Of a stretch of 14,290 bases of DNA, positions 1-14,290 are shown in pieces. This stretch comes from an uncultured Desulfobacterium sp. (GTDB lineage Bacteria > Desulfobacterota > Desulfobacteria > Desulfobacterales > Desulfobacteraceae). Under the pieces are notes generated by a model. That model saw nothing but the letters and a program-made list of their open reading frames with translations. It did not search any database and was not told where the DNA came from. The translations under genes and the position numbers were made by a program. Location: NCBI GenBank assembly GCA_937124525.1, contig CAKZLA010000550.1:1-14290 (forward strand), read 5' to 3'. Each line of letters begins with the position of its first letter. The stretch's first letter is position 1.

Positions 1-2279
1 ACAAGTTCAAACCCATTTTCCATGGGTATGTATTCGGCCCAGAACGTCATGTTGTTAATCTTTAAATGCCCTGTAAAATGTCCTGTCTTTGGATCAAAAA
101 TTTTCCTTCCGCTGTTTTCACAATGCTTAACAACGGCGTCCATATCCATATCCAGTATCATTTTACTGTTTAGACTTTGATTAACACTGAAAGGAATTTT
201 CAAATAAAATTTTTCCCCATTGCCATTATCTTTTCCTTTCTCCTTTGCTTCCTGTTCGGTTTCAAGCCTTTCCCCCCAGAAATCCATCAGCATTTTACGT
301 TTTAGCTGAACTCGATTATTTCTTTTATCTGTATAGGTGGGCGGTTGTCGATGTGAATCGTGCAATCCAAACAGAATATCCAGAATATGAAAAACAGGTT
401 TTCCAGAAGAGGCAAAAATATCCCGGCAGTTGATACAATAGGCAATGTAGGGATGATCATTTTGCTTAACCCTTGATTTAATCATCTCATGGGCATAATT
501 GGGATTTGCAATTGATATCTGTCCCCCCCAGCTGCAACATTGGGCCAGGGCACCTTCCATGGCCAGGGGCTCCATGGTAAAACCTGATTTTTTCACCAGG
601 AGCCTGACAACTTGCTGTAGTTCCGGTTCTTCCCGGCTGGAACAGGGATCAAAAACAGACACCGTTTCTCCTACGCCAGCCCTGGCGACAGAACAATTCC
701 ATTCCAGCAACATCTCATAGAGAAATACCCCCCCTATTTCCGGCAGATACCGCTTAAACATCTGTTTACATGTGGGACAGGCAAAAATGGCCACAGGTTT
801 TCCAAGAGAAAGCCATTGGTTTTGAATATTATCAATGACATCTTTATGGAGTTCTTCCTCCCCGGCCCATTGGGCAGGAGCCCCGCAACAGTTTATCATC
901 AAGGCGGTATCCGGCTTTTCAGCCAAAATCCTGCCATAACTTTCAGTGGCATAGATCATATCCGAAGCGCCCAGCTGGCACCCCGGAAAAAACATATATT
1001 CACTGGTGTTGTATCCGTCCGGGATTCTGGTTAATTGAGCTTCATCACCGTTGGTAAATGCCATGTCCTGTAACCAGAAATCATGATATGCCCATGGCAT
1101 AGCCCCCTTTTGTGTCATTGCCCCATGGCTTTGCAGCAAAAATTCTCCCAGATCTATATTCTGGGGACACACCGTCTTGCAAAGCCCGCAATGGTTACAG
1201 GTGGAGATAAATCTTGTGGCAATGGTCCCATCCCCCGCCAGGGTGCCAGGATTGATGGTGGCTTCCACATCATCTGCAATATTCTGGGGATATTTATTGG
1301 AATGCCGCATGAGATCACAGTGTCGAATACAGGCATCACAGGAACATTTCAGGCACCTTGCCGCTTCCTTCAGGGTCTCATCCCTGGTATAGGCACTTTT
1401 GTTGGCCGGGAGCACCGGTGGTGCAGAAACCACCCGGTCCGGAGCCATCTTTAGATGGGTACCCCGGGGGTGTTCCGGGGCATTCATGGTGCCCACCTTG
1501 ATATATCTTTCCATGGCATGCACCACCTGAAGGCCGTCTGCCATGGCCTTGCAACTTTCACTGCCCGTCAGGGACCCGCCCATGAAAATACCGGGTTTAG
1601 TGCTGGCAAAGGCCCCTCTTTTATCCCGTTTCAGCCCAAAAGTTTCACCGCCTTTTCCTGTGGCAATATATATGGCATCAAATGCCGGGTCCAATTCATC
1701 AATTTGTAAAATTTCCCGGTGTAAAAGCGTGTACTTTTCGTACATGAACTGGTGGTCAATATCATCCAGAAACACCTTTGGGGGCAATAGATCCCACAGG
1801 TGTCCGCCAATGCGTTGGGATTTTTCATACACAGTGACATCATATTTTTTTTCGCAAAGACGAAGGGCACAGGATAGACCGCTTATCCCGGCCCCGATAA
1901 TTGCCACCCGCTTATTTTTCAACGGCATGTTGTAACTATTGGGATTGGTTCTTGTGGCATAATCCATGGTGGCTTTTTCCAAAAGTTTCATGGAAATGGC
2001 ACCATCCTTATCCCCCCTGATACACACTTTTTTGCAGGGTTCATCACACAGCCTGGAAGCAATGCCAGGAAACCCCACTGCATTATGATAGGCCCGGAAT
2101 GCCACATTAAACCCACCCCGTTGTATCTTATCCATGAACCCGGCCACATCCAGATGAAAGGGGCATACAGCCGTGCAAAATGCCTGCTCATTTTGCAAAC
2201 AATTGTTTATATCTTTCAGTCTGATCTTCCAATAGCTTGGTAATGGGTTGACACGACCCTTAGAAAAATTTAGATCCAT
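1..2279 (-). CDS. FAD/iron-sulfur oxidoreductase with two CCG (HdrB/HdrD-type) domains, 3' end outside window
   Basis: The frame is open from the ATG at 2279-2277 to base 1, giving at least 759 residues with no stop, so the C-terminus lies outside the window. Order of domains: a dihydropyrimidine-dehydrogenase-type N-terminal iron-sulfur domain (Cys 27, 35, 39, 78, 82, 86); a FAD Rossmann motif GAGISGL at 129-135 and a second FAD motif near 231-240; a cysteine cluster at 309-321; a [4Fe-4S] motif at 361-371 (CNHCGLCKTVCP); and two CCG domains (C434, CC464-465, CPTC 501-504; C546, CC581-582, CINC 615-618), as in heterodisulfide reductase HdrB/HdrD and DsrK. The usual NAD(P)-binding subdomain between the two FAD motifs is absent. 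The start overlaps the upstream aldehyde oxidoreductase by 20 bp, with a GGTGA just before the ATG, so translation is probably coupled. Likely role: cytoplasmic electron acceptor for that enzyme. The final acceptor is unknown. Domain calls are firm; the role is inferred. Confidence 0.88.
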   Translation of the reverse strand, partial: MDLNFSKGRVNPLPSYWKIRLKDINNCLQNEQAFCTAVCPFHLDVAGFMDKIQRGGFNVAFRAYHNAVGFPGIASRLCDEPCKKVCIRGDKDGAISMKLLEKATMDYATRTNPNSYNMPLKNKRVAIIGAGISGLSCALRLCEKKYDVTVYEKSQRIGGHLWDLLPPKVFLDDIDHQFMYEKYTLLHREILQIDELDPAFDAIYIATGKGGETFGLKRDKRGAFASTKPGIFMGGSLTGSESCKAMADGLQVVHAMERYIKVGTMNAPEHPRGTHLKMAPDRVVSAPPVLPANKSAYTRDETLKEAARCLKCSCDACIRHCDLMRHSNKYPQNIADDVEATINPGTLAGDGTIATRFISTCNHCGLCKTVCPQNIDLGEFLLQSHGAMTQKGAMPWAYHDFWLQDMAFTNGDEAQLTRIPDGYNTSEYMFFPGCQLGASDMIYATESYGRILAEKPDTALMINCCGAPAQWAGEEELHKDVIDNIQNQWLSLGKPVAIFACPTCKQMFKRYLPEIGGVFLYEMLLEWNCSVARAGVGETVSVFDPCSSREEPELQQVVRLLVKKSGFTMEPLAMEGALAQCCSWGGQISIANPNYAHEMIKSRVKQNDHPYIAYCINCRDIFASSGKPVFHILDILFGLHDSHRQPPTYTDKRNNRVQLKRKMLMDFWGERLETEQEAKEKGKDNGNGEKFYLKIPFSVNQSLNSKMILDMDMDAVVKHCENSGRKIFDPKTGHFTGHLKINNMTFWAEYIPMENGFEL

Positions 2280-5181
2280 CACTTTCACCCAATGATTCAA
2301 ACATGTCATGGCCCCGAAATTTCACTGGATTTGCCTTAATATTTTCCAACTCATCATAGAGGTCAGACCCCAGAAAATACTTTTTCGGGGGCTCAATTTT
2401 TTTACCGGCTGCCAGTGTTTCCAGCCCTGCTTTTATCTTTTCAGGTTTTGCAGGAAGATCAAATATCCTTACCCCGCAGGCATTGTATATGGCATTGATA
2501 ACAGCCACATGGCCCGAAGACTGGAAGGCTTCGGATGCGCCAGAAGAACCAAAGGGTCCATCTTCCCGGGGATTCTCACAGGGAATGAGAATAATTTCAT
2601 CGGGAATATCCTTAATATAAGGCACACCGCTTCTGGCGATGTTGGTGTGCTTTTTCACATCACTGTAATCTTCACTCAAGGCAAAACCAATGCTGTGGGA
2701 AATACCACCGTAAGCCTGACCGCTCACCGCATCAATATTACCGATCTTTCCAACATCATAAACACAGACAAACCGCAGCACCGTGGTCTTACCCGTGGCG
2801 GTGTCCACTTCCACCTCTGCCATATTCAGTACATAGGTAAAGGCAGGGGTGGGATCACCAAGCCCTGTATTGGGATCAAGACGTGTGATGGAAAGATCCG
2901 TGATACAGGTATATGTCTCCTCATATCGGGTCTCAATGCCCTGGGCTTTCATCTCCTCGTATGTTCTGTAGGTCCCATCCTCTTTACGCATGGCAGCCAT
3001 GAGCTTTTCTGCGGCAAGTTTTGTGGCATGGCCATTCATATAGTGGGAACGGCTGGCAGCGGACATGCCACTGTCAGGGCAGATCTTGGTATCGTTCTGG
3101 CACAGTCTGACCCGATCCGGGGTTACTCCCATGGGCTTTAAGGCTTCAAGGGTTACCATGAGAGATCCCACGTCCCCCCCCTGGCCCAGGTCCTGCCATG
3201 TGTCATATTTAAGGATCATATTTTCGGCATCCAGTTCCAGCACAACCGTGGCCTGATCCGTACCGCCCTCGGTGACATTGAACCCACCCCAGGCAAGACC
3301 CACACCCCTTCTTTTTTCCGGAGTGTCGGCAGACTTGGCTTCGGCAACGGCTTTATCATAATGGGGGCGCAGCTTTCCCATCATCTCTTCCATGGGATAA
3401 TCTTTAAACACATGGCTGTTTATGTTTGTGTCCCCGGGCCTTGCAATGTTTTTCCATCTGAACTCAAAGGGGTCAATCTCCATTTTTTCCGCCAGCATAT
3501 CCATCAATGCTTCAGACATGGTGTATGCTTGGGGAGACCCATAACTCCGGTATGCCGTACCAAAGGTATGGTTGGTATTGGCCACCCGGCAAAGGCCCGC
3601 CACATGGGGAACCTTGTAGGGAAAGAAAGAAAAACGCACTGGTTTTTCCATCACATGATCCCCGCCCCAGGAGTAGGCACCATGATCCAGTCCCACATCA
3701 AATTCTGCCGCAGTGATTTTACCGTCTTCATCGCAGGCCACCCGGCCATTGGAAAAGGAGGGGCACCGTTTTCCACTGAAGTGCTGGTGCTCCTCATAGG
3801 TCAGGGAAAGGGCCACAGGTCCATTGACGGCAACGGCTGCAGCCCCAGCCAGGCAAAGATCTCCAGCATTTGTGGACCAGCCAAAACTTGCACCGTTGAA
3901 GTTATCAACAATGCGAAGTTTTTCCCGGGCCACCCCAAGGGAAATACCAACACGGCTGATGGAAGTATAAAGTCCCTGGGACTTGCATTGGAAGGTTAAA
4001 AAATCATCTTCGTCAAAATATGCCTGTACTGTACAGCCTTCTATGGACAAATGGGGTTCCCGGGTGGAATAAAAACTGCCCTCCACACTACAGGCGGAGT
4101 TGTCCAGAATTTCCGGCACCTTTTCTGTGTCTTCCAGGGCATCCCCCTTTAAAACAGGCTGGACACAGAAAAGATTGGGGGTATCGTCATGGACACGAAT
4201 GGCATCGGGCATCACCGCATCCAGAAAGTTAAGGTACTCGGGAAGGGGCTCAACTTCCACCTTTACTCTGGCCGCTGCGTCCCGGGCCTGGTCAAGGGTA
4301 TTGGCAATGGCCAGGGCCACCACATCCCCATAACGGAATATTTTATCGTCACAGAGAATTTTCCGGCTGGGAAGGGTCACACTACTGCGCTCGTGGAGAT
4401 TGGCCTCGGCCATCTGGTTGGTTCCGCCGTTTGCCTTGATATCTTCATGGGTGATTATTTTAACCACCCCGGGCATTTTTAATGCTTCAGTGGTATCAAT
4501 ATTTAAAATTTTTGCATGGTGGGCCACCCTTGGCTGAACCACTGCCACATGAAGGGTTTCCCGGGGCATTTTCAAGGCCATGTCTTCACCGTAATCGGCA
4601 AGTCCGGTCACCTTGGCAAGGGCTGCAGGCCTTACTAACGGCTTTCCATAACATTCATTATCTTCAGGAACTTTATAGGTGATGTCATCAATGGTGGCTT
4701 CCCCCCGGACAACCTTTGCCGCAGCCATCACGGCATCCACAAGCTGCTTATATCCGGTACAACGGCACACATTGCGATGCTTTTGAAACCAATCCCGAAC
4801 TTCCCCACGGGAGGGATTATCGTTCTGTAAAAGCAGGGCATATGACGAGACAATAAAACCAGGAGCACAAAAACCACATTGAACAGCACCATAGTTCATC
4901 CAGGCCACCTGTAGTGGATGCAGATTATCAGGGGTTCCAATGCCTTCAAGGGTTGTAATTTTACTATACTCCTCAACGGATCTCACCTTTTTAGAACAAG
5001 ATCGGATCACCTTGCCGTTAAGTATCACCGAGCATGATCCACACACCCCTGTATCGCAGCCAACTTTAACACTTGTGAGACCCATACGGCGTAACACCTG
5101 GGCCAGGGAATCTTTTTCCGGATCACAAATAAGCATGCGATCAGCGCCATTGATGTTTAACCACATTTTTCTTGGTTTCAT
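2260..5181 (-). CDS. mop: Mop-like aldehyde oxidoreductase (molybdenum hydroxylase with two [2Fe-2S] domains)
   Basis: A 973-residue single-chain molybdenum hydroxylase of the xanthine oxidase family, collinear with D. gigas aldehyde oxidoreductase (907 residues), which oxidises aldehydes to acids. The plant-type [2Fe-2S] domain has Cys 42, 47, 50, 62. The second [2Fe-2S] domain has Cys 102, 105, 139, 141 (CRCTGYK), offset by two from the D. gigas residues. The molybdopterin part begins near 180 (PLVRPAALAKVTG). It keeps SFGW near F433, the R545-x-Y547 substrate-pocket pair (R533/Y535 in D. gigas), GQG at 666-668, and the catalytic Glu at E884 in SGASE, where D. gigas has SGVGE. There is no flavin domain; the overlapping downstream flavoprotein probably takes the electrons. 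The start is set by a perfect GGAGGT (5192-5197, minus strand) ten bases before the ATG. A tail of about 50 residues beyond the D. gigas end is unusual. Substrate is inferred. Confidence 0.93.
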   Translation of the reverse strand: MKPRKMWLNINGADRMLICDPEKDSLAQVLRRMGLTSVKVGCDTGVCGSCSVILNGKVIRSCSKKVRSVEEYSKITTLEGIGTPDNLHPLQVAWMNYGAVQCGFCAPGFIVSSYALLLQNDNPSRGEVRDWFQKHRNVCRCTGYKQLVDAVMAAAKVVRGEATIDDITYKVPEDNECYGKPLVRPAALAKVTGLADYGEDMALKMPRETLHVAVVQPRVAHHAKILNIDTTEALKMPGVVKIITHEDIKANGGTNQMAEANLHERSSVTLPSRKILCDDKIFRYGDVVALAIANTLDQARDAAARVKVEVEPLPEYLNFLDAVMPDAIRVHDDTPNLFCVQPVLKGDALEDTEKVPEILDNSACSVEGSFYSTREPHLSIEGCTVQAYFDEDDFLTFQCKSQGLYTSISRVGISLGVAREKLRIVDNFNGASFGWSTNAGDLCLAGAAAVAVNGPVALSLTYEEHQHFSGKRCPSFSNGRVACDEDGKITAAEFDVGLDHGAYSWGGDHVMEKPVRFSFFPYKVPHVAGLCRVANTNHTFGTAYRSYGSPQAYTMSEALMDMLAEKMEIDPFEFRWKNIARPGDTNINSHVFKDYPMEEMMGKLRPHYDKAVAEAKSADTPEKRRGVGLAWGGFNVTEGGTDQATVVLELDAENMILKYDTWQDLGQGGDVGSLMVTLEALKPMGVTPDRVRLCQNDTKICPDSGMSAASRSHYMNGHATKLAAEKLMAAMRKEDGTYRTYEEMKAQGIETRYEETYTCITDLSITRLDPNTGLGDPTPAFTYVLNMAEVEVDTATGKTTVLRFVCVYDVGKIGNIDAVSGQAYGGISHSIGFALSEDYSDVKKHTNIARSGVPYIKDIPDEIILIPCENPREDGPFGSSGASEAFQSSGHVAVINAIYNACGVRIFDLPAKPEKIKAGLETLAAGKKIEPPKKYFLGSDLYDELENIKANPVKFRGHDMFESLGESDGSKFF

Positions 5182-5191
5182 GAAATGAATT

Positions 5192-5197
5192 ACCTCC
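5192..5197 (-). promoter_or_regulatory. Shine-Dalgarno site of the Mop-like gene
   Basis: The minus strand reads GGAGGT here, a full match to the anti-Shine-Dalgarno core, ten bases before the ATG at 5181. It decides the start of the hydroxylase. Confidence 0.85.
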
Positions 5198-5222
5198 AGA
5201 TGTTATTTTTATTATTTAGGGT

Positions 5223-5281
5223 TCGGGAATCATCGCCCCAAAAGTGTAAAGTATTTTTGGGATAATTTGAAGGATGCCCGA
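5223..5281 (-). promoter_or_regulatory. Candidate structured 5' leader of the Mop-like operon
   Basis: An outer imperfect stem pairs TCGGGAATC (5223-5231) with GATGCCCGA (5273-5281): eight pairs and one A/G mismatch. It encloses a second stem, CCCAAAA (5237-5243) with TTTTGGG (5255-5261). It lies 42-100 bases upstream of the hydroxylase ATG, within the probable leader mRNA. In the plus direction it is followed by a T-run, so a plus-strand terminator is a second reading, although no plus-strand gene ends here. I do not recognise it as a known riboswitch. Confidence 0.4.
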
Positions 5282-5341
5282 TTTTTTATAAAAATTATTA
5301 AAAGCTCAATATCTGAGTTGTGTAGCCCAGGGGTTATAAGT

Positions 5342-5367
5342 TGTCAATATTAATATATTTTTTGACA
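5342..5367. promoter_or_regulatory. Inverted TTGACA pair in the divergent control region
   Basis: TGTCAA (5342-5347) and TTGACA (5362-5367) form a perfect inverted repeat separated by 14 AT-only bases. Each arm is a consensus -35 hexamer facing outward from the pair. The minus-strand copy could serve the Mop operon, but the -10 at 17 bp (TACACA, 5324-5319) is weak. A regulator site is an equally good reading. Confidence 0.35.
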
Positions 5368-5443
5368 TTCAAATCTAAAAAAAAACTAAAACCAAGTTGT
5401 TTTTACCTAAGAAAAACTCAAAAGAACCCTAAACAACTATCTT

Positions 5444-5472
5444 TTGACACAAATTATCAACCTTGCTATCAA
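5444..5472 (+). promoter_or_regulatory. Probable sigma-70 promoter of the thioesterase gene
   Basis: TTGACA at 5444-5449 is a perfect -35 box. It is followed after 17 bp by TATCAA (5467-5472), four of six matches to the -10 consensus. Transcription would start near 5479, giving a leader of about 70 bases that contains the palindrome at 5491-5507 and an AAGGA ribosome-binding site before the ATG at 5548. Confidence 0.5.
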
Positions 5473-5490
5473 ACCTAAAAAAGTTTACAC

Positions 5491-5507
5491 ATCACATGTT
5501 CTGTGAT
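5491..5507. promoter_or_regulatory. Candidate operator palindrome upstream of the thioesterase
   Basis: ATCACA (5491-5496) and TGTGAT (5502-5507) form a perfect inverted repeat with a 5-bp centre. It sits just downstream of the inferred transcription start, a normal place for a repressor site. The half-sites are in everted order compared with the CRP consensus, so CRP/FNR binding is not implied. The binding protein is unknown. Confidence 0.4.
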
Positions 5508-5547
5508 TAACGCCACAACTTAGAATAAATTGAAAGAAGGAAAATAA

Positions 5548-6573
5548 ATGACCAGGCAAATAAAAACCCCAGCCGATTCAGAGTGCTTTATTGCAGAAAT
5601 TATTGGTGAGGAGAGCCTCATTGGGCAGCGCATGTCTGCTGGAAAGCTACTGCATATGATGGATATTGCCGCTGCCAGCGCAGGGGCCAGGCATTCGGGA
5701 AGTTCCCTTGTGACTTTGTCTTTTGATCGGATTGAGCTGCTTGATCCAATCTGCCACAGAGATTATGTACGCTATGATGCCTGTGTAATTCAGGTAGGAC
5801 ATTCCTCCATGGTGATCAAAGTCGAGGGCTTTCATAAGGCCCCCGGAGAGATGGAACTGGTGCCCGGGCACAGCCATATCATTACCATGGTGGCCATTGA
5901 TGCCAACAGAAAGCCCAATAAAAACATTCCCAAGCTTGAATACCGGACATCCAAAGATCTTGGGTTGAAAAAATTAGCAGAAGTCAGGCAGCGGTTTCTA
6001 AACAATCGTCAAAAAATGAAGGAGGCTGTTTTTGCCCTGGAACAGATCCCGGACAAATGGTTGACGGATTACTATCCCCGCACGTCTTATTTCACCCCAG
6101 AGGCCACAGAACTTGTTACCCGAAGGCGCTTTCTTCCCCGTAATATCAATGTTCTTGGCAATGTATTTGGTGGAGATACCGTTGAAATGATGGCGGAGCT
6201 GGCATTGGCCACGGCCCGTCAGTTCACCGGCAACTACCGTATGGTGACCATTGCCATGGAGGACGTGTTTTTTCTTAAACCCCTTCAGTTGGAAAATATC
6301 TTTGAAATGTGTGCCCATGTGATTTTTATTGCCAACACCACATTGGTGGTGGAGATCACCGTCAAGGCCATTTCACTGCATGACACACAAGAATCCTATG
6401 TCACTAATAATGGTCTTTTTACGGTGCTCAATTACGACCGCTCTGGAAGAAAAAAAGGAATTGTCAATGGGCTGGATATGAGTCATTCGGATCTTCAAAC
6501 CCGGCAATACTATCTCAATGAGTTGATAAAGTACGAGAAACGAACTGGGCGTGAGATCACCTGGAAAGGATAA
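5548..6573 (+). CDS. Double-hotdog acyl-CoA thioesterase (ACOT7/BACH-like)
   Basis: A 341-residue protein made of two hotdog domains, as in the acyl-CoA hydrolases that release CoA from fatty acyl-CoA in the cytoplasm. Domain 1 (about 15-125) carries GKLLHMMDIAAA with D39, the usual position of the catalytic Asp. Domain 2 (about 190-300) carries LGNVFGGDTVEMMAE with N205, the usual Asn position, but has A216 where the Asp would be. Domain 1 in turn has R28 where the Asn would be. One composite active site, formed by D39 and N205, is therefore likely. An AAGGA ribosome-binding site precedes the ATG and a promoter lies about 100 bp upstream. It is transcribed away from the Mop operon and shares its control region. 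Physiological substrate is unknown; release of acids from CoA esters near an aldehyde-oxidising enzyme is only a contextual guess. Confidence 0.85.
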   Translation: MTRQIKTPADSECFIAEIIGEESLIGQRMSAGKLLHMMDIAAASAGARHSGSSLVTLSFDRIELLDPICHRDYVRYDACVIQVGHSSMVIKVEGFHKAPGEMELVPGHSHIITMVAIDANRKPNKNIPKLEYRTSKDLGLKKLAEVRQRFLNNRQKMKEAVFALEQIPDKWLTDYYPRTSYFTPEATELVTRRRFLPRNINVLGNVFGGDTVEMMAELALATARQFTGNYRMVTIAMEDVFFLKPLQLENIFEMCAHVIFIANTTLVVEITVKAISLHDTQESYVTNNGLFTVLNYDRSGRKKGIVNGLDMSHSDLQTRQYYLNELIKYEKRTGREITWKG

Positions 6574-6689
6574 TTAAGTATGTGGTGTCCCCCCGGAATT
6601 AACTGAATTAACCCAAAAACTTTGCAAACATCCCGGCTTAAGTGGGTACCCCTATTTTCGATGCTGAATAAATACCCAAAAATTTTGGA

Positions 6690-7439
6690 TCAAATCTGAA
6701 ACCGGGCAGCCACGGGATAATGATCAGAAGGAAACCGTCCATCAAAAGAGTCGGTGAGCACCTTTTTGTGCATCAGCTGAAGCGGACCACGATAAAGAAT
6801 CCAATCAATGTGCATCTGGGTCTCAATGCCTTTAAATTCATGGAAGGTGGTTCCATGGTTATTCTCAAAGACTTCAGAAAACCTCGCTGCCTTGAAAAGG
6901 CGGTATGCGCCACTTCCCGGTGAACAATTAAAATCACCCACAATAAGCACCGGTCTATCATCAGGAAATTCCTCCAGAAACGAAACCACAAGCCTGGCAC
7001 TCTGCTCTTGCACGGATTCATCAAAATCAAAATGGGTGTTACAGATAATCAACTGATGCTCCTGGTGTTGAAAAAGCCCCATGACACATTGCCTTGGCCA
7101 CTGACTTCCCGACAATTTGGACGTCACATCCGGGGTGTGGCTCAAAAAACAGTGTTTTTGTTCCAGGCAGAGCCAGCCATGATGGTAAAATATTCCATTA
7201 TTTTGCCACCACTGCAGGGCAGGATTGTGCCAGCCAATGAAATGATGCGCTCTCAGTTTTCGCTGGAGAAAGCCCATCTGAAAGTGATTAAGCTCCTGGA
7301 ATCCCATGAACGTTGCAGGGTGCAGATGCAAGAACTTTTCAACCAGAATTTTTCTGTTAAACCATCCATTTTTGCCATCCCGGGCCAGGCCGAATCTCAT
7401 GTTCATGGTCATAATCGTGAATTCCAACGGTTCAGACAT
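6690..7439 (-). CDS. Endonuclease/exonuclease/phosphatase (EEP) family protein
   Basis: A 249-residue protein with the full set of EEP-fold motifs (the fold of exonuclease III, DNase I and inositol phosphatases): MTMNMRFG (N13), GFQEL (E49), WQNNGIFY, CNTHFDFD (H136), VLIVGDFNCSPGSG (D169, N171), MHIDWIL (D212) and the terminal SDHYPVAARF (D239, H240). These residues bind the metal and cleave phosphoester bonds. There is no signal peptide, so it is presumably cytoplasmic. Length fits the single-domain secreted/cytosolic phosphohydrolase-like group, and the motifs alone do not separate a nuclease from a small-molecule phosphatase. It is convergent with the thioesterase gene, with 116 bp between them and no convincing terminator. 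The ribosome-binding site is weak (AGGG, about nine bases before the ATG). The fold is secure; the substrate is not. Confidence 0.85.
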   Translation of the reverse strand: MSEPLEFTIMTMNMRFGLARDGKNGWFNRKILVEKFLHLHPATFMGFQELNHFQMGFLQRKLRAHHFIGWHNPALQWWQNNGIFYHHGWLCLEQKHCFLSHTPDVTSKLSGSQWPRQCVMGLFQHQEHQLIICNTHFDFDESVQEQSARLVVSFLEEFPDDRPVLIVGDFNCSPGSGAYRLFKAARFSEVFENNHGTTFHEFKGIETQMHIDWILYRGPLQLMHKKVLTDSFDGRFPSDHYPVAARFQI

Positions 7440-7508
7440 CCTGCAATCCCTTTTTTTTCTCTTTAATAGTTTTCATCAGGAGTGAGCCCAAGCCCCATTT
7501 ATACGTGA

Positions 7509-7713
7509 AACCTCGTCCGTGTTGATCGCTTAAGTGATCAAAAACTGAAAGCATTTACTATAATCCACAACTATTATCTCAAGGGGCCTGATGGAACCAC
7601 CGCAGCAGAGCGGTTTTATGAGAATAGACCCATTGATAGGTTTAAATGGTTACTCAGTAATATGCCCCAAGTATCTCGACCGAGAAACGTAACAAAAAAA
7701 GAGGTGACTGATT
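7509..7713 (+). pseudogene. C-terminal remnant of a transposase
   Basis: Plus-strand frame running from just after a TGA at 7506-7508 without a start codon. It reads LSDQKLKAFTIIHNYY, then KGPDGTTAAERFY, then RFKWLLSNMPQVSRPRN. This resembles the C-terminal tail of transposases in which a HNY...PDGTTPAERFF..P.DLFEWLL pattern ends the protein (recalled, not searched). The frame continues to a TAG at 7743-7745, but that part overlaps the end of the cysteine desulfurase gene and is probably not original sequence. The rest of the transposase and any terminal inverted repeat are absent, so this is a decayed element. It occupies most of the gap between the EEP gene and the cysteine desulfurase gene; bases 7440-7508 hold nothing I recognise. 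Confidence 0.6.
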
Positions 7714-8859
7714 TTATTGTGCAATCTGTTCCATGGCCGCAATAGTGATATCTATGTCTACACTGGAATTAAAAATACCCAGACTGAATCGCACAGCCCC
7801 CCTGTTGCCAGTCCCCAGTGTTTCATGAACCAGGGGGGCACAGTGAAGACCCACCCGCACGGCAATGCCGAAATCACCGTCAAGAATGGCACCAATATCT
7901 GCAGGGTTGAAAGATTCCAGGTTGGCACTGAGAACGGCCAGATGGCGGTCAGGGGTAATATTACTACCCCCATACAACTCGATTCCCCTGATGGCAAAAA
8001 GACCTTGGTACAACTTCTCAATGAGGCGCATTTCCTGCCCATGGAAAGTGGAAATTCCCTTTTCAAGAAGATAATCCATGGCAAGGGAGAGCCCCATGAT
8101 CCCCATGAGATTATGGGTACCGGCTTCCAGGCGATGGGGAAATTCCCGGGTGTGAACCAGACTGCTGGAATCAATGCCGGTTCCGCCAAAACGGGTGGAA
8201 TCTATTTCAAGGGCCGGATGGAGCACCAGGCCCCCGATGCCCGGCGGGCCGTAAAGGGATTTATGGCCAGTGAACACCAGGGCAGAAGCGTTCATTTCCC
8301 CTATATCAACGGGGATCTGCCCTGCGGACTGTGAGGCATCCACCACAAGATCAATTCCCTGGGCTTTGCACATGGCTCCCACCTGGTTGACAGGTTGAAT
8401 GGTGCCAAGGACATTGGAGGCATGGGTCATTACCACCAGCTTTGTTTCCGGGCGTATGGCATCTTTTATGTCCTGGGGATCGATAAAACCCTGTTGGTCA
8501 AAGTTGACAATGCTGCAGGTGATGATTTTATTTTTTTGCAGGTGATAAAGGGGACGAAGAACGGAGTTATGCTCCAGGCGGGTGGTGATGACGTGATCCC
8601 CGGGTTTTAAAATTCCCAACAGTGCTATGTTTAGGCTGTCTGTTGCATTGGCTGTGAAAATCACCCGGTTGGGATCAGGGGCACCAAAGAAACGGGCAAG
8701 CTTTGCGCGGGTTTGATTTATAAAATCCGATGCCACCATGGCAGCGTCATAGCTGCCCCTGCCCGGAGAGACCCCCATGGCGGAAAAGTGCTCCACCATC
8801 TGATCAAGTATCTGCCTTGGTTTTGGCCATGTGGTGGCGGCATTATCCAGATATATCAA
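7714..8859 (-). CDS. Cysteine desulfurase family protein (class V aminotransferase fold)
   Basis: A PLP enzyme of the NifS/IscS superfamily, 381 residues from the start chosen here. It has the N-terminal IYLDNAATTWPKP motif, H97 in LEHNSV, the PLP-contacting VDASQSAG (D174, Q177), the Schiff-base lysine K200 in FTGHKSLYGPPG, and the sulfur-accepting C340 in VGLHCAP. This is the group (TIGR01977-like) known from selenium-dependent molybdenum hydroxylase loci. It would take sulfur, or perhaps selenium, from (seleno)cysteine as an enzyme-bound persulfide. Start: an ATG at 8871 has no ribosome-binding site, whereas GGAGG at 8869-8865 lies five bases before a TTG at 8859, which gives the usual family N-terminus. 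The upstream genes on the same strand are a TusE-like sulfur carrier and a molybdenum hydroxylase, so cofactor sulfuration is a likely job. Family call firm; partner inferred. Confidence 0.9.
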   Translation of the reverse strand: MIYLDNAATTWPKPRQILDQMVEHFSAMGVSPGRGSYDAAMVASDFINQTRAKLARFFGAPDPNRVIFTANATDSLNIALLGILKPGDHVITTRLEHNSVLRPLYHLQKNKIITCSIVNFDQQGFIDPQDIKDAIRPETKLVVMTHASNVLGTIQPVNQVGAMCKAQGIDLVVDASQSAGQIPVDIGEMNASALVFTGHKSLYGPPGIGGLVLHPALEIDSTRFGGTGIDSSSLVHTREFPHRLEAGTHNLMGIMGLSLAMDYLLEKGISTFHGQEMRLIEKLYQGLFAIRGIELYGGSNITPDRHLAVLSANLESFNPADIGAILDGDFGIAVRVGLHCAPLVHETLGTGNRGAVRFSLGIFNSSVDIDITIAAMEQIAQ

Positions 8860-8950
8860 ATAATCCTCCATGAAAATAAGTGTGGATGTGGGGCTTGGTT
8901 AGAACATGGGCCACCCGTCACAGTTGGCGAGTGAACAAGGTTAAATTTAT

Positions 8951-9039
8951 GTTATTGGAGGCTGAGGTTTTTACCAGGCTCCGTGCTTTTGACAACTACC
9001 TGTGTCTCAAAGGTAAATTTCAACAAAAGCGCCAATAAC
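8951..9039 (-). other. Candidate structured RNA with nested stems (three-way junction) upstream of cysteine desulfurase
   Basis: Perfect inverted repeats nest here. The outer arms are GTTATTGG (8951-8958) and CCAATAAC (9032-9039). Inside them are GCTTTTG (8985-8991) and CAAAAGC (9024-9030), which enclose TACCT (8997-9001) and AGGTA (9011-9015). Between the outer and second arms a further small hairpin can form around GGT-TTTT-ACC (about 8966-8975). Together they could fold as a three-way junction. The element lies in the 247-bp gap between the TusE-like gene and the cysteine desulfurase gene, with its 3' end about 80 bases before the desulfurase start, so a cis-acting leader on the minus strand is the simplest reading. 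I recognise no known riboswitch consensus. Confidence 0.45.
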
Positions 9040-9041
9040 GT

Positions 9042-9099
9042 AAGCCTGACTCCTCCCCAAAGTGGCCCTGTGACCAAGCCCTGGATATGAATCAGGCTT
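9042..9099. repeat. Perfect 8-bp inverted repeat AAGCCTGA/TCAGGCTT
   Basis: AAGCCTGA at 9042-9049 and TCAGGCTT at 9092-9099 are exact reverse complements with 42 bases between them. The repeat begins 20 bases after the TusE-like stop on the minus strand and directly abuts the nested-stem element. Neither side has a T-run, so a simple intrinsic terminator is unlikely. Bases 8872-8950, next to the desulfurase start, show no further structure that I can support. Confidence 0.5.
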
Positions 9100-9118
9100 C
9101 AGCTCTTGTGGAAAAACC

Positions 9119-9481
9119 CTACAGGCATGCCTTGGGATTGGGCAGTCCCGCCAGTCGCCGGGCCCCCATGCGGATACCTTTGGGGAACAGTTTTTCCAGG
9201 GCCATGAGACCCATGCCCGTTCCCGTCTTTAAATCCTTGTTCATGGGAGCCCGACCATGGTAAAAATAAAATTCCCGCATGAACCGGAGCACCTGCCACT
9301 GGGTATCATCAAGGGTTTCCAGGCCCATCTCCCGGGCAAGGGCCAGGGCGATGGACTCATCCCAATCCTGGGGGTCCCACAAAAAATCCTCCCAGTCAAA
9401 ATAGAGATCGCGACCGGCAATGGTACGCAGATGCCGGTCGCGACCCTGTTGGGCAGAATGCTCCAATTCGTTTTCAGTCAT
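9119..9481 (-). CDS. TusE/DsrC-family sulfur carrier with only the C-terminal cysteine
   Basis: A 120-residue member of the DsrC/TusE/DsvC family, recognised from GRDLYFDWEDFLWDPQDWDESIALALA, the WQVLRFMREFYFYHGRAP segment and the C-terminal LAGLPNPKACL. The penultimate Cys (C119, CysA) is present. The second cysteine of true DsrC, eleven residues earlier, is replaced by R108. It therefore cannot form the DsrC intramolecular disulfide or trisulfide of dissimilatory sulfite reduction, and fits TusE-type carriers that hold one persulfide. The ATG directly follows the TAA of the second hydroxylase, with no bases between, so it is probably made by coupled translation. A cysteine desulfurase gene follows on the same strand. 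This context suggests sulfur transfer towards the molybdenum enzyme rather than tRNA thiolation or sulfite reduction. The family is clear; the role is inferred. Confidence 0.88.
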   Translation of the reverse strand: MTENELEHSAQQGRDRHLRTIAGRDLYFDWEDFLWDPQDWDESIALALAREMGLETLDDTQWQVLRFMREFYFYHGRAPMNKDLKTGTGMGLMALEKLFPKGIRMGARRLAGLPNPKACL

Positions 9482-12160
9482 TTAGGATTTGTCTGCCGTT
9501 TTTAATGCAGCCAGAACTTTATCCGGTGTGGCCGGCAGATTGGTTATCAGTACACCGCAGGCATCTTTGATGGCATTGATCACCGCCGGTGCCGTTGATA
9601 CCATGGACATCTCTCCCACCCCTGTGGCTCCCAATGTGCCCCGGGTTCTGGGGGTCTCCTGGACCACCGTTTCCATGTCAAAGGAGGTTTTCATGGTGGG
9701 GAACTTAAAGGTGCGCCAGTCCGTGGTCTTTCCGGCGATGAACTCCTCACGAAGGGCATACCCTACGCCCATATCCATGCCGCCTTCCAATTGTCCCGTC
9801 AGGTTATTGGGATTGATCACCACTCCCGCATCTACGCCCATGGTCATTTTCAGCACCCGGACCTCTCCGGTCTCCGTATTAACTTCCACCTCGGCCAGCT
9901 GGACGGCGTGGACATCGGATTCCGAAGAGGGGCCCTGGCCGGTGTCCGGATCCAAGGGGGCTGTTTCAACGGTGGCACGGTTACCCACATAGCGTGTGGG
10001 AACATCGGCGGCTTTGAAGGCCTCAAAGGTTTTAGACCCCACCGTATCCATGGCTTTTTTCAACTGTTCCAGAGCCGCAACGGTGGCACCACCGATCATC
10101 AGCGTCACCCGGCTACCCGAGGCCGGACCCGCCGCAGCGGTGTTCCCCGTGGATCGGGTCATTGCCCTCACCTTGTCAAGGGGCAGTTCCAGTACCTGGG
10201 CTGCCAACTGGGTGAGCATGGAATCATTTCCTTCACCTGGATCTGCCGCAGCAGCATATACGGTGACCCCGTCGTCGGGTTCCAGCTCCACGGCGGAGAT
10301 GGATTTGTCTCCGGGAAATCCGATTCCAAATGCGGCAGCCCCCAGCCCAACACCCCGTTTGACAGTTCCCTTATTGTCATGGGCCGCGGCATCGGCCATG
10401 GCCCGGTCATAATTGGGTTTAATGGCATCGCACAGCTCGGGAAAGGGCCATTGATCCACAGGATGCCCGGTGGCCTTGGTTAATCCCGGTTCCAGACTGT
10501 TGAGTTTCCTGAATGCCAGCGGGTCCATGCCAAGTTTTTGTGCCAAAAGGTCCATGGTACATTCCAGGGCATAGTGGACCTGTGGGGGACCGGCTCCCCT
10601 TGCGGCACTTCCCCAGGGATTGTTGCTGTAGATCAACTTGGAAGAGACGTTAATGTTGGGGATATAATAAGAGCTTGAAAGCATGTGAAGTGCCCGGTTG
10701 ATGATGACGTTACCAATGGAATGATAGGCCCCGTTATCCACGGTCATGTCCATTTCAAGGGCTGTGAGCTTGCCCTTGGCATCGGCTCCCATCTTGATTT
10801 TCATGTCAAAGGGGTGGCGCTTTGAAGTTATGAGCATGGATTCGGCAATGCTTGGGGTATAACGCACCGGTCGATTGAATTTTAACGCGGCAGCAGCGGT
10901 AATACCCTCGGTGAACACCTCAAGTTTAATGCCGAATTGTCCCCCGGAAAAGGGCTCTTCATAGCGGATGTTCTCAAACCCCAAAGCCTCCTGAAGCATG
11001 GACATGTGAAGATGGATATTAATGCCCCGGCCCATGACCACCAGGGTGGCATCTTCGCCTTCACCTTCCATGTAGGCCACGCTGTTTTCCGGCTCCATGG
11101 GGGCCTGGTGATTGATCTGGGTGATAAAATGCTCTTTGGCCACCACCGTCGCATCGGCGAATCCTTTGGCTGCATCTCCCTTGATTACAGGCTGGCTGAA
11201 ACAGTGGTTGGGCCGGTCGGGGTGAATCTGAACGGCATCCGGTGCAAGGGCCTCATCTGTGGTTCTTATTTCCGGTAACAGCGCATAGTCCACCTTTACG
11301 GCATCCACGGCGGCCAGGGCCTGTTCCCTGGTTTCTGCCACCACCACGGCAACGGCATCACCCAGGGTGCGAACCCGGTCTTCACAGATCACCGGCCGGT
11401 CTCCCACAATGTATTTCAAGCGATTACTGCCTTTGATGTCCGCGGCTGTGAGCTTACCGATAAATCCCGGCATTTTTTCAGCTTCGGTAAAATCAATGTT
11501 TTTAATTTCAGCATGGAAGTGGGGACTTCGTACCACGGCGATTTCCATGGCACCGGGCATGGTGATATCCGCCCCAAACTGGGCAGTACCACAGGCCTTT
11601 AAAAGGGCTGATGGTCTGACGTGGGAAACCCCCATTTTGGCATCTGTGGGTTTGGGCCGGATCTCATCGGGTGTCAGCTCTTTTCTGAGAAATCGTGCGG
11701 CCAGTTGAACAGCTTCAATGATCTTTACATAGCCTGTACAACGACAGATATTGCGACGAAGGGCGTGCTTGATCTCATCCGCAGTGGGATTAAGATTAAC
11801 GTCCAAAAGGGCCTTGGTGGCCATGATCATGCCCGGAGTGCAGAAACCGCACTGGATGGCACCGGCCAGGGCAAAGGCTTCCTGGATCAGATGGGGATTG
11901 GCCGGTGTGCCAAGCCCCTCAACGGAGATCACCGTGGCTCCCTCAAGTTTTTGAACCTTTGTAAGGCAGGATAATACCGCTTTTTTATTAACAATGACCG
12001 TGCAGGCCCCGCATTGTCCCTTCCGATCACAAGATTGTTTGGCCCCTGTCAAGTGTAGATGATCCCGCAGCAGGTCCAGCAGGACCATGTTTTCATCTGC
12101 TACCACCTGCTTTGCTTGTCCATTGATTGTTAAATTAATTTTTTTCAAACTCTTCCCCAT
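9482..12160 (-). CDS. Second Mop-like molybdenum hydroxylase, divergent active site
   Basis: An 892-residue single-chain molybdenum hydroxylase with both [2Fe-2S] domains (Cys 44, 50, 53, 65 and 104, 107, 139, 141) and the complete molybdopterin part from about residue 180 (VRPSALLKACGTAQFG). The catalytic Glu is E850 in GATGVGEMS, and the cofactor-contacting GSR motif is present. It differs from D. gigas Mop in three places: the first cluster motif is C-x5-C rather than C-x4-C; the pocket motif is R521-G-A523, with Ala in place of Tyr535; and the cofactor-contacting GQG is GEG (E643). No flavin domain is present. Substrate is unknown: an aldehyde or an N-heterocycle. The ATG at 12160 is preferred to an in-frame TTG at 12259, because the extra 33 residues are atypical of the family and their DNA carries promoter-like signals. 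No clear ribosome-binding site precedes the ATG. Translation appears coupled to the TusE-like gene downstream. Confidence 0.9.
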   Translation of the reverse strand: MGKSLKKINLTINGQAKQVVADENMVLLDLLRDHLHLTGAKQSCDRKGQCGACTVIVNKKAVLSCLTKVQKLEGATVISVEGLGTPANPHLIQEAFALAGAIQCGFCTPGMIMATKALLDVNLNPTADEIKHALRRNICRCTGYVKIIEAVQLAARFLRKELTPDEIRPKPTDAKMGVSHVRPSALLKACGTAQFGADITMPGAMEIAVVRSPHFHAEIKNIDFTEAEKMPGFIGKLTAADIKGSNRLKYIVGDRPVICEDRVRTLGDAVAVVVAETREQALAAVDAVKVDYALLPEIRTTDEALAPDAVQIHPDRPNHCFSQPVIKGDAAKGFADATVVAKEHFITQINHQAPMEPENSVAYMEGEGEDATLVVMGRGINIHLHMSMLQEALGFENIRYEEPFSGGQFGIKLEVFTEGITAAAALKFNRPVRYTPSIAESMLITSKRHPFDMKIKMGADAKGKLTALEMDMTVDNGAYHSIGNVIINRALHMLSSSYYIPNINVSSKLIYSNNPWGSAARGAGPPQVHYALECTMDLLAQKLGMDPLAFRKLNSLEPGLTKATGHPVDQWPFPELCDAIKPNYDRAMADAAAHDNKGTVKRGVGLGAAAFGIGFPGDKSISAVELEPDDGVTVYAAAADPGEGNDSMLTQLAAQVLELPLDKVRAMTRSTGNTAAAGPASGSRVTLMIGGATVAALEQLKKAMDTVGSKTFEAFKAADVPTRYVGNRATVETAPLDPDTGQGPSSESDVHAVQLAEVEVNTETGEVRVLKMTMGVDAGVVINPNNLTGQLEGGMDMGVGYALREEFIAGKTTDWRTFKFPTMKTSFDMETVVQETPRTRGTLGATGVGEMSMVSTAPAVINAIKDACGVLITNLPATPDKVLAALKTADKS

Positions 12161-12181
12161 GGCTTTGTAATTTGTTGAAAG

Positions 12182-12206
12182 AAATTGGCAAAAATATGGC
12201 CAATTT
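12182..12206. promoter_or_regulatory. Palindrome AAATTGGC-N9-GCCAATTT before the second hydroxylase
   Basis: Perfect 8-bp arms (12182-12189 and 12199-12206) flank nine bases, 22-46 bases upstream of the ATG. It may be an operator or a leader hairpin. On the minus strand TTGGC...TTTGC also has the GG-N10-GC spacing of a sigma-54 -24/-12 promoter (12203-12187), but that start site would leave only about 16 bases of leader. Confidence 0.45.
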
Positions 12207-12226
12207 TTAATAAAAATGATGTAATT

Positions 12227-12259
12227 AGTATAGTTATGGTTTGTTATTGTCAATAACAA
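12227..12259 (-). promoter_or_regulatory. Promoter with -35 inside a perfect 19-bp palindrome
   Basis: TTGTTATTG (12241-12249) and CAATAACAA (12251-12259) form a perfect palindrome around one base. On the minus strand its centre reads TTGACA (12253-12248), a consensus -35. It is followed after 15 bp by TATACT (12232-12227), five of six matches to -10. A repressor bound to the palindrome would block this promoter. The 15-bp spacer is short, and the regulator is not in the window. Confidence 0.5.
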
Positions 12260-12403
12260 TCATTAATGAAAACAATTATGCAAATATGAAATATAAAAAT
12301 AACCATAAACGAGTAAAAACAACCATTATTAAAAGTTTACGACGCGAGCATAATGCACTAAATTTATTAATTTTAAGCCAATGAATGTAATATTTTTGTC
12401 CGG

Positions 12404-12428
12404 TCACCCAAGAGGGCAACCCGGGTGA
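12404..12428 (-). terminator. Weak hairpin after the ATP-grasp gene, possible terminator
   Basis: TCACCC (12404-12409) and GGGTGA (12423-12428) can pair around 13 bases, starting 13 bases past the ATP-grasp stop. There is no T-run after it on the minus strand, so intrinsic termination is doubtful. The remaining AT-rich sequence (12260-12403) holds nothing else that I can support. Confidence 0.25.
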
Positions 12429-12440
12429 AAACTCTTCTTT

Positions 12441-13160
12441 CTATATTTTACCGGCACTGACCAGATCACAAAGCAGTTGTTTATAGTTGATTCCGGCCTT
12501 TGAGAATCCTTTGAGCCCATATTTCATGTTGGCTTCCAGCACGTAAAATTGTTTATCCTTCTCAACAATATCAATCCCCACGTCATCCCACCCGCACCGG
12601 GATGCGGTTTCCAAAGCGAGATCCAGGGCTTTTGGGGGCACCGGGTCAAAGCTGATGTGCCCGCCCTGGAACACATTGGTTCGAAATGGATCAGCCCCCA
12701 GCACCCGCCAGTAGGAAAGCACGACCTCCTTTCCAATAATGACCACCCGTATGTCTCTGTCCATGGGAATGTAGTTCTGTATATAAGCGGGTCCGGTGCA
12801 GGAAAGGTATCGTTCCATATCCTCCTGGTTTCTGATCAAATAAACGTGCAGACCCCGGGAAGATCCCCGGGCTTTTTTGGCCACAAAAGGGTAGTTAAAC
12901 AAATCTAAAATCTGTTTTTTCTGCTGTTTTCCATAAAAAATGTGAGTGCGGGGATGGGGGAGCCCCATCATCTGAAAGATGGTCGTCTGGCGAATTTTAT
13001 CCTGGGCGAATTTATAGGTATGAAAGCTGGGAAAGGTCTCTTTTCCCATGGTGTGAAATAGATCGGCATAAAACGCTGTGGGATAGTAAATCCGAGGTGC
13101 ATTCAGGATATGATCTCGATCCAGGGGTGAATAATCGCAAAAATTGGGCTTGAATCCCAC
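12441..13160 (-). CDS. RimK-type ATP-grasp ligase-like protein
   Basis: At least 239 residues with the ATP-grasp fold of RimK/glutathione-synthetase-type ligases, which join a carboxylate to an amine through an acyl-phosphate. Visible motifs: KFAQDK (50-55) before the central domain; the ATP-binding loop PFVAKKARGSSRG (91-103); AYIQNYIP (125-132); DRDIRVVIIGKEVV (134-147); and the metal-binding end VLEANMKYGLKGF with E209 and N211. Substrate is unknown; amino-acid or peptide ligation is usual for the family. The GTG at 13160 is the first conventional start, but the protein would then begin in the middle of the N-terminal domain. The same frame stays open upstream to a TGA at 13226-13224 and encodes a plausible missing strand (see findings). 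It lies downstream of the amidohydrolase on the same strand and may be co-transcribed with it. Confidence 0.8.
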   Translation of the reverse strand: MGFKPNFCDYSPLDRDHILNAPRIYYPTAFYADLFHTMGKETFPSFHTYKFAQDKIRQTTIFQMMGLPHPRTHIFYGKQQKKQILDLFNYPFVAKKARGSSRGLHVYLIRNQEDMERYLSCTGPAYIQNYIPMDRDIRVVIIGKEVVLSYWRVLGADPFRTNVFQGGHISFDPVPPKALDLALETASRCGWDDVGIDIVEKDKQFYVLEANMKYGLKGFSKAGINYKQLLCDLVSAGKI

Positions 13161-13275
13161 AGTGCGGATCTGGGGGCAATGGACCAGTCTGACACCAATG
13201 GCAATTGAAAATTTTATACTTCCCCCTCATGTTTAAGAATATTTTATTAATCATCCACCGTTGGGGTGAATGGGA

Positions 13276-14290
13276 TCACTTGGGATAAAACGTTTTCCCA
13301 ACACGACAGATATGGGCTATCAAAACATTCTCCGGCATGATGGCATAGCAAAAGACCTTACCCTTTTCAAGGGAGCCCAGCCTATCATTCATCAAAAGCG
13401 CCCGGGCAGGATTAAGGGTAATCAAAGAGATGGCCTCTGAAATGGAAATGGGTCGTTCAAGTCGTTCAATAAAATAAGAAAGTTCATTCCAAAGATTCAG
13501 ATCGTGGTTGGATGCAATGCTGTCGGTTCCCAGACACACGCAAATGCCTGCATCCAATATTTTTTCCCAGGGGGCCCGGCCCACACCAATGAAATCATTG
13601 CTCCGGGGGCACAAGCATACGTTTGTACCGGTGTGGGCAATGATCTCAATATCTCGGTCCGACACCTTGACACAGTGCACGGCCAAGGTGGTATTGTCCA
13701 GCAAACCAAAATCCCTGGCATGCTCAATGGGGGTTTTCATGGGTGGCACATATTCTCCCAGCAAATTATTTTGTTCCAGCAATTTATAAAAGCTGTTTTT
13801 TTCTCCCATGAGCATGCCGGTCTCATCTTCATGTTCAGCCATATGTATGGAAAAGGGAAGGTTTTTTTTAGTGTCCTGGCGTTTGACCTCCTGTAACATT
13901 GCGATACTTGTGGTGTGCAGGGCATGACCTGCGCCTGCAATGGCACTAAGAGGTGCTTTTCCATAGGGAAGTTTCTTAATCGGGATGACAGCTGACAAAA
14001 AACCAAAGGCCTCAACAAAGCAGGTATGATAAACGCCCAGTTTTGTCAAAATATCAATAATTTTTCCATCCTGGTGCGTTAAAATATCACCAAAACAACA
14101 GATTCCCTGTTCCTTTGCCCCAATCACAGCCTTTTCAACGGCATCAAAATCGGTTTTGCTGTAGTTATGGGTCATCATGCTCAAAAGCCAGGGGATGAAT
14201 CCCTGTCCGGATACGGTTTTACCTTTGAGTTTTGATAATTTCAGATGGCAATGGGCATTGACAAGGCCTGGCACCATGGTCACTTCCCCC
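13276..14290 (-). CDS. Amidohydrolase-superfamily deaminase/hydrolase, 5' end outside window
   Basis: The frame is open to the right edge (GEVTMVPGLVNAH), so roughly 50-60 N-terminal residues, including the usual small beta-sandwich strand region, lie outside the window. Metal ligands of the ATZ/TRZ-type amidohydrolases are all seen: NAHCHL (HxH), FSIHMAEHEDE (third His and the catalytic Glu), AVHCVKVSDRDI (fourth His) and LGTDSIASNHDLNLWNE (Asp). The CPRSN and GTDSxASN motifs resemble aminodeoxyfutalosine deaminases of the menaquinone futalosine pathway. Guanine-deaminase/SsnA-like or S-adenosylhomocysteine-deaminase-like activity cannot be excluded. The protein is cytoplasmic. The ATP-grasp gene follows on the same strand after a gap of 58 to 115 bases, depending on its start, which suggests an operon. 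The superfamily is certain; the substrate is a guess. Confidence 0.85.
   Translation of the reverse strand, partial: GEVTMVPGLVNAHCHLKLSKLKGKTVSGQGFIPWLLSMMTHNYSKTDFDAVEKAVIGAKEQGICCFGDILTHQDGKIIDILTKLGVYHTCFVEAFGFLSAVIPIKKLPYGKAPLSAIAGAGHALHTTSIAMLQEVKRQDTKKNLPFSIHMAEHEDETGMLMGEKNSFYKLLEQNNLLGEYVPPMKTPIEHARDFGLLDNTTLAVHCVKVSDRDIEIIAHTGTNVCLCPRSNDFIGVGRAPWEKILDAGICVCLGTDSIASNHDLNLWNELSYFIERLERPISISEAISLITLNPARALLMNDRLGSLEKGKVFCYAIMPENVLIAHICRVGKTFYPK

Follow-up and report, generated by a model that had tools for sequence, protein, structure and literature searches.

What does a small protein of the DsrC/TusE family do between the gene for a molybdenum hydroxylase and that for a cysteine desulfurase? 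The question is raised by a stretch of 14,290 nucleotides (nt) from an uncultured Desulfobacterium sp. (assembly GCA_937124525.1, contig CAKZLA010000550.1, positions 1 to 14,290), referred to here as the window. An original prediction, made from this sequence alone, saw the three genes as a relay supplying sulfur to the molybdenum cofactor (Moco) of the hydroxylase. The analysis presented here concerns the conservation of this arrangement and the properties of the three proteins. The genes form a conserved cassette which, as we infer for each transfer step and for the target, serves as a desulfurase-to-carrier relay that sulfurates (or selenates) the cofactor of the hydroxylase; we give this reading a probability of roughly 0.55. 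The data behind it are the conservation of linkage and of residues, the clade structure and the predicted fold.

The three genes and their linkage

All three genes lie on the minus strand and the ATG of the DsrC-like gene directly follows the hydroxylase stop, both as originally predicted. Their parts are as follows (aa, amino acids; PLP, pyridoxal phosphate).

9482..12160, minus: Mop-like molybdenum hydroxylase of the DsrC-linked clade, 892 aa, identified by Pfam and NCBIfam domains
9611-9613, minus: catalytic Glu850 of the cassette hydroxylase
9481..9484, minus: hydroxylase/DsrC-like junction, TAA then ATG directly, in the same frame, as read from the sequence
9119..9481, minus: DsrC/TusE-family single-cysteine protein, the proposed sulfur carrier, 120 aa (PF04358, TIGR03342)
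9125-9127, minus: Cys119 of the DsrC-like protein
8872..9118, minus: gap between the DsrC-like and desulfurase genes, 247 nt
7714..8871, minus: SufS-like cysteine desulfurase of the TIGR01977 branch, 385 aa
8260-8262, minus: PLP Lys204 of the desulfurase
7840-7842, minus: loop Cys344 of the desulfurase

The hydroxylase was taken to start at a conserved ATG (12160), because close homologues such as that of locus L001 align from there; the mechanical open reading frame (ORF) begins at a TTG at 12259. At its other end the sequence reads ...TCC TAA ATG..., the DsrC-like ATG being the codon right after the stop, and translational coupling of the two genes at this junction is likely, to judge from their sequence. 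A spacing of 0 nt is also found in L001, L003, L027, L035, L044 and L045. The 247-nt gap before the desulfurase gene is unusually long for the cassette, the median being 13 nt (47 loci), and is shared with the nearest relative, L001 from Desulfocicer vacuolatum (216 nt), whose hydroxylase is 92% identical. Neither a terminator nor a sigma-70-like promoter was called on the minus strand of this gap, and no RNA gene was found in the window by ARAGORN or by Rfam at gathering scores.

An alignment of 36 DsrC-like proteins (the window protein and 35 of the 120 matches listed) served for one scan of contigs from one genome per species. Two short peptide patterns, of which one resembles LAGLPNPK, were used to retrieve the 53 loci discussed here, and conservation of those stretches is thus partly built in; the terminal cysteine and the position of the second DsrC cysteine (CysB) lie outside both patterns. 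By record title the loci belong to Desulfobacterota lineages, Chloroflexota, Bacillota and Actinomycetota. Many of the 50 cassette genomes are incomplete, and many contigs and flanks are short. A hydroxylase of the same clade is present upstream on the same strand in 51/51 evaluable loci (the other two contigs begin at the DsrC-like gene), with a spacing of -19 to 457 nt, mostly below 30. The desulfurase is adjacent in 49/51 evaluable loci: in 47 it immediately follows the DsrC-like gene and in two it immediately precedes the hydroxylase. In the two loci left out of this count the contig ends.

The association also holds when read from the hydroxylase, where the best two or three candidates per genome were scored and further copies may have been missed. 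In 395 genomes of the L001 phylum, the DsrC-like profile scores at least 135 bits in 16 genomes, followed by a gap down to 96.7 bits, and 17 genomes have hydroxylase copies of at least 57% identity, 18 in all, followed by a gap down to 44%; both partner genes accompany 16 of the 18 copies. Among 301 genomes of the L009 phylum (Chloroflexota) there are four hydroxylase-clade copies in two genomes, two of them with the pair, and among 299 of the L020 phylum (Bacillota by title) there are six, one cut by a contig end, with the pair at 4/5 evaluable copies. In total, 22 of 27 evaluable copies have both a DsrC-like and a desulfurase gene; 13 of the 27 are in genomes already found through the DsrC-like gene, and outside these the figure is 11/14. 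Neither partner gene was seen at any of 26 more distant Mop-like loci (L130-L133, L135-L143, L166-L178), within 1.5-kb flanks, a few of which are cut by contig ends.

Three of the five exceptions are extra copies (the second copy of G375 and two of G017) in genomes which also hold a full cassette. Right behind the fourth, in G083, come a class-V aminotransferase of another kind, sharing 25% identity with the window desulfurase, and a NifU_N-domain protein (a weak match, 27.5 bits against a cut-off of 22); the two span L145:7417-9177. No DsrC-like gene of the cassette clade was found in this genome, and it looks as though a second desulfurase-acceptor pair had taken the place of the first. The fifth, in G891, is discussed below. 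Carrier and desulfurase are missing together in the four clade copies which have neither the pair nor a substitute.

The three proteins have correlated distance matrices (r 0.61-0.64 over 41 rows, 0/2000 permutations as high), which is what genes that are inherited or transferred as a unit should show; since shared species history contributes, this is weak evidence alone. The cassette is a conserved arrangement and not a chance neighbourhood, with an association close to obligatory in both directions. The original prediction had named rarity of the three genes as neighbours in related genomes as the outcome that would speak against it, and the counts given above (51/51, 49/51 and, in reverse, 22/27) are the opposite. 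No description of a DsrC/TusE protein joined to a molybdenum hydroxylase was found by titles and abstracts in the open-licence literature, among the matches listed; the linkage is real and, as far as this search extends, undescribed.

The proposed carrier and the desulfurase

The small protein belongs to the DsrC/TusE superfamily (PF04358, 83.5 bits, cut-off 24.9; TIGR03342, 63.5 bits, cut-off 53.5), and scores below the TusE equivalog (NF008562, 45.7 versus 191 bits). Its AlphaFold2 model has a predicted local distance difference test (pLDDT) score of 88.5, and all eight PDB matches at an E value of 0.001 or better are DsrC-family chains. In a tree of 102 DsrC-family proteins, the hydroxylase-linked proteins (52 loci and the window) are split from 49 canonical DsrC at 100/100. 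This tree has few alignment columns, its inner forks are weak and it holds no TusE; the 49 comparators are the top-scoring matches, with single-cysteine TusE and the tandem DsrC type outside the sample.

DsrC uses two cysteines of its C-terminal arm. The carrier arm is of the type ARRxxGLPNPxxC, with small variants such as ARV, SGLP or LPSP, and ends on a cysteine kept in 53/53 loci; in the window protein this residue, Cys119, is the only cysteine of the 120 aa. CysB is found in 0/53 loci, its place being taken by Arg in 53/53, whereas it is Cys in 49/49 comparators, so these are not canonical DsrC proteins. They form a separate clade of single-cysteine proteins, which from their sequences would fit better as persulfide carriers than the two-cysteine DsrC of sulfite reduction. 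In 15/50 genomes, several of them incomplete, the hydroxylase-linked protein is the sole DsrC-family match. Service to DsrAB or to a canonical TusE relay is unlikely in these 15, although dsrAB and tusBCD were not searched for and many of the genomes are incomplete. A different arrangement was also observed in several genomes (G005:C70, G030:C252, G044:C128, G047:C183 and others), in which two DsrC matches occur in one frame and end short of the last part of the profile, the part that includes the C-terminal Cys.

Regulatory roles have been proposed for some members of the DsrC family. The carrier might likewise be a redox partner, regulator or assembly chaperone which transfers no sulfur, the desulfurase being a general helper. 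This would be in keeping with the window, where the DsrC-like gene abuts the hydroxylase and not the desulfurase gene, but fits poorly with the adjacency of the desulfurase at 49 of 51 loci, with the loss of both genes together in four clade copies and with the strict retention of Cys119, and we think it quite improbable.

The desulfurase is a member of the TIGR01977 branch (417.7 bits, cut-off 377) with loop Cys344 and PLP Lys204. These two residues are present in 47/47 rows, window included, and the best solved relatives are SufS-type cysteine desulfurases. TIGR01977 is named for EF_2568 of Enterococcus faecalis, which Haft and Self discuss together with selD and molybdenum hydroxylase genes (PMC2276186, in the part available), so that the original statement that this branch is recorded at selenium-dependent molybdenum hydroxylase loci was right. 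In the same part of that paper EF_2568 is called probably a selenocysteine lyase (PMC2276186). In a selenium version of the relay, the desulfurase could act as a selenium carrier or as a selenocysteine lyase, selenium could travel on the cysteine of the DsrC-like protein and the hydroxylase could be selenium-dependent. Over the cut-offs, selD is present in 48/50 cassette genomes and selA in 47/50. Controls were run for selD, with selA left without one, and show how unspecific it is: selD occurs in 53 of 60 genomes with Mop-like genes from the L001-phylum sample (59 without the cassette clade, and G083) and in 160 of 201 genomes of the Chloroflexota sample. This high background led us to drop genome co-occurrence as evidence for selenium. 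An over-cut-off selD match lies on the cassette contig only in G026, about 100 kb away, many contigs being short. Moreover, the desulfurase is below the cut-off for the selenocysteine lyase SclA (NF040779, 343.2 versus 525 bits) and the hydroxylase below that for selenium-dependent xanthine dehydrogenase (XDH; TIGR03311, 549.5 versus 830.45 bits). We consider a selenium relay unlikely, although taken together these data tip the balance neither way on a role of selenium in the cassette.

The hydroxylase and its cofactor

The cassette hydroxylase includes the domains Fer2, Fer2_2, Ald_Xan_dh_C, MoCoBD_1 and MoCoBD_2. With two [2Fe-2S] domains, Moco domains and catalytic Glu850, a residue present in 46/46 rows (window included), it is a member of the xanthine oxidase family. 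Its best solved relatives are the aldehyde oxidoreductases 1sij (591 bits) and 1dgj (553 bits), which we take to be the D. gigas and D. desulfuricans enzymes; it is nevertheless below the equivalog cut-off for Mop-type aldehyde oxidoreductases (NF045668, 790.6 versus 1100 bits). The window itself provides an internal contrast in the form of a second hydroxylase, Mop1.

2260..5181, minus: Mop1, second Mop-like hydroxylase, of the NF045668 aldehyde-oxidoreductase type (1154 bits, cut-off 1100)
3..2309, minus: oxidoreductase with cysteine-rich and FAD-type motifs (by eye), an open 769-aa ORF which runs off the window

Neither desulfurase nor carrier lies beside Mop1. A homologue of the oxidoreductase is found within 1.5 kb of the Mop1-type gene in 18/18 Mop1-type loci and the desulfurase-carrier pair in 0/18; the oxidoreductase may be the electron partner of Mop1.

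Two further residues of the hydroxylase were noted. Residue 643 (window 10232-10234) is Glu in 46/46 cassette-linked rows, as it is in each of 30 other rows of the clade, pair present or not, and Gln, in a GQG motif, in 34/34 distant Mop-like rows (27 distinct genes); it is a clade trait. Cys320, found in each of the 46 first-set rows and in none of the same 34 distant rows (27 distinct genes), was considered as an obligatory partner in the relay. This role was dropped, as the residue is replaced in four members with a full cassette (see below) and is present in G891, which has no cassette. The next tier of hydroxylases (L146-L148, about 43% identical) lies in a conserved cluster of its own with genes named by eye as an FAD oxidoreductase, a short-chain dehydrogenase and a PEP-synthase-like gene. 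Upstream of the cassette in the window, on the same strand (12441-14283), are a RimK-type ATP-grasp protein and an amidohydrolase, neither with a match shown in L001.

SufS-type desulfurases usually feed iron-sulfur assembly, and the pair could serve the two [2Fe-2S] clusters of the hydroxylase rather than Moco, a possibility to which the class-V aminotransferase and NifU_N-domain protein found in place of the pair in G083 would lend themselves. Mop1, however, has the same Fer2 and Fer2_2 domains and, like the 26 distant Mop-like loci, does without the pair; the DsrC-like protein has a single cysteine and no cluster-scaffold motif, and the NifU_N match is weak. This makes the iron-sulfur explanation highly improbable.

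The original prediction placed the carrier in place of, or alongside, XdhC. An XdhC-family protein is encoded in 46/50 cassette genomes, mostly away from the cassette (close to it in 5/53 loci), and none was detected among the window genes scanned. Because XdhC is so widely present in these genomes, the cassette looks like an addition to it; 'alongside' fits better and 'in place of' is unsupported. The four genomes without XdhC (G018, G031, G032 and G042) may be incomplete, and those whose carriers are closest in the tree to that of G018 (G016 and G020) do have XdhC; we did not retain them as cases of replacement.

Genes flanking the three vary, the largest neighbour cluster being present in 10/53 loci and ABC-transporter-like. 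XdhC, a MobA-like NTP transferase (MocA type) or both occur in the flanks of six of the 53 loci (L018, L019, L020, L032, L035 and L051), and L049 has a partial relative at its contig end. The most complete order is that of L019 (wider piece L189): an ABC transporter with an SBP_bac_11 binding protein, which by its sequence resembles those of molybdate uptake, then hydroxylase, carrier, desulfurase, XdhC and NTP transferase. L025 has similar transporter genes, and L018 an NTP-transferase/HD protein, a histidine phosphatase and XdhC. These flanks lean towards cofactor maturation.

The flanks bear as well on whether the cofactor is the target at all. The carrier might give its sulfur to a substrate or product, the three proteins together making or breaking a sulfur-containing metabolite. 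TusE, a single-cysteine DsrC-family protein, does pass sulfur on to MnmA for tRNA (PMC5372717, in the part available), and many of the clade-specific residues of the hydroxylase lie in the Moco-binding domains. A single shared pathway is disfavoured by the lack of conservation beyond the three genes, while those that recur in the flanks include cofactor-maturation genes, and we regard this explanation as improbable.

We propose instead that the three genes are dedicated to the maturation of a single clade of Mop-like molybdenum hydroxylases. In this scheme the desulfurase would draw sulfur from cysteine as a persulfide on Cys344, in keeping with its family and conserved residues, and would hand it to Cys119 at the end of the carrier arm, as the single conserved cysteine and the TusE precedent suggest. 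DsrC reaches into DsrAB with its arm. In a similar picture, the carrier would dock on the co-translated hydroxylase, or on a chaperone holding the cofactor, where its sulfur would replace an oxo ligand of molybdenum and yield a Mo=S enzyme. Where XdhC and the MocA-type NTP transferase occur, handling and insertion of the cofactor would remain their task. A more far-reaching version is that the DsrC-family arm takes up sulfur or selenium from a dedicated desulfurase and delivers it directly into the folded Mop-like hydroxylase, to give Mo=S or Mo=Se, along a widespread and undescribed route in which XdhC is for cofactor handling only; this we put forward tentatively, as possible but doubtful.

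Several observations weigh against a sulfuration relay. The original prediction took a terminal Mo=S ligand to be needed throughout the enzyme family, but D. gigas aldehyde oxidoreductase, the closest solved relative, is reported to be active without a sulfido ligand (PMC10223205, in the part available), which contradicts this and means that the need for Mo=S in the cassette clade cannot be taken as given. The G891 hydroxylase is a true counter-example to the linkage: both genes are missing from its surroundings, nothing obvious stands in for them, and the genome lacks a DsrC-like gene altogether. L004 and L005 have no adjacent desulfurase, although a cassette is present at another locus (L003) of the L004 assembly. 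The window desulfurase gene lies 247 nt away and may be expressed apart from the carrier. Cys320 of the hydroxylase is V or Y in L123, L162, L163 and L164, all with a full cassette. Among proteins of about 557-1773 aa and 230-731 aa, none was found in which a DsrC-like domain is naturally fused to a larger partner, and there is no XdhC or MocA-type gene in the flanks of 47/53 loci, where many contigs are short. One prediction follows from the relay: only the cassette-linked type, and not the Mop1 type, would need a sulfido (or selenido) ligand.

Relation to known systems

A three-gene unit conserved over four phyla is a compact and testable system. Within one organism, two Mop-like enzymes would have different metal ligands, a point relevant to the question whether an enzyme of the D. 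gigas type needs sulfur. If the proposal is true, the best-known enzyme built on this scaffold, active in its oxo form, would have relatives with Mo=S (or Mo=Se), and the roles of the DsrC family would extend past sulfite reduction and tRNA thiolation to a third use of the fold. An annotation as 'dsrC/tusE' need not mean sulfur respiration, as illustrated by the 15 of 50 genomes in which the hydroxylase-linked type is the sole family match.

One close parallel is NifS4-XdhC-XDH of R. capsulatus, where the cofactor of a xanthine-oxidase-family enzyme likewise receives its sulfur from a cysteine desulfurase (PMC2997495). There, NifS4 acts on XdhC-held cofactor, with no intermediate carrier described in the part of the report available (PMC2997495), whereas the loci studied here almost always include a DsrC-family protein and usually have no adjacent XdhC. 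The selenium-dependent hydroxylase locus of E. faecalis shares the desulfurase branch (EF_2568, TIGR01977) and has molybdenum hydroxylase genes in the region (PMC2276186, likewise in part). It includes a small protein, EF_2566, with a SirA-like N-terminus, so that its carrier candidate is of the SirA type and not DsrC, and selD is adjacent there but not beside the cassette (PMC2276186).

Like the cassette carrier as proposed, a DsrC-family protein passes on desulfurase-derived sulfur in the E. coli relay IscS-TusA-TusBCD-TusE-MnmA; its target, in contrast, is tRNA via MnmA, and TusE is fed through TusA and TusBCD (PMC5372717, in the part available). The window carrier differs from E. coli TusE also in missing the equivalog cut-off. 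With DsrC of the DsrAB sulfite reduction system it shares the fold (Foldseek E 9e-8 to 2xsj_C) and a similar arm, AGLPxPxxC, but it has Arg at the second-cysteine position in all 53 loci, and the linked gene encodes a hydroxylase. Finally, the cassette hydroxylase has its closest solved relative in D. gigas aldehyde oxidoreductase (Mop; 1sij, 591 bits). That enzyme is reported to be active without the sulfido ligand (PMC10223205, in part), and genes of the Mop1 type adjoin another oxidoreductase and have no desulfurase-carrier pair (18/18), unlike the hydroxylases of the cassette.

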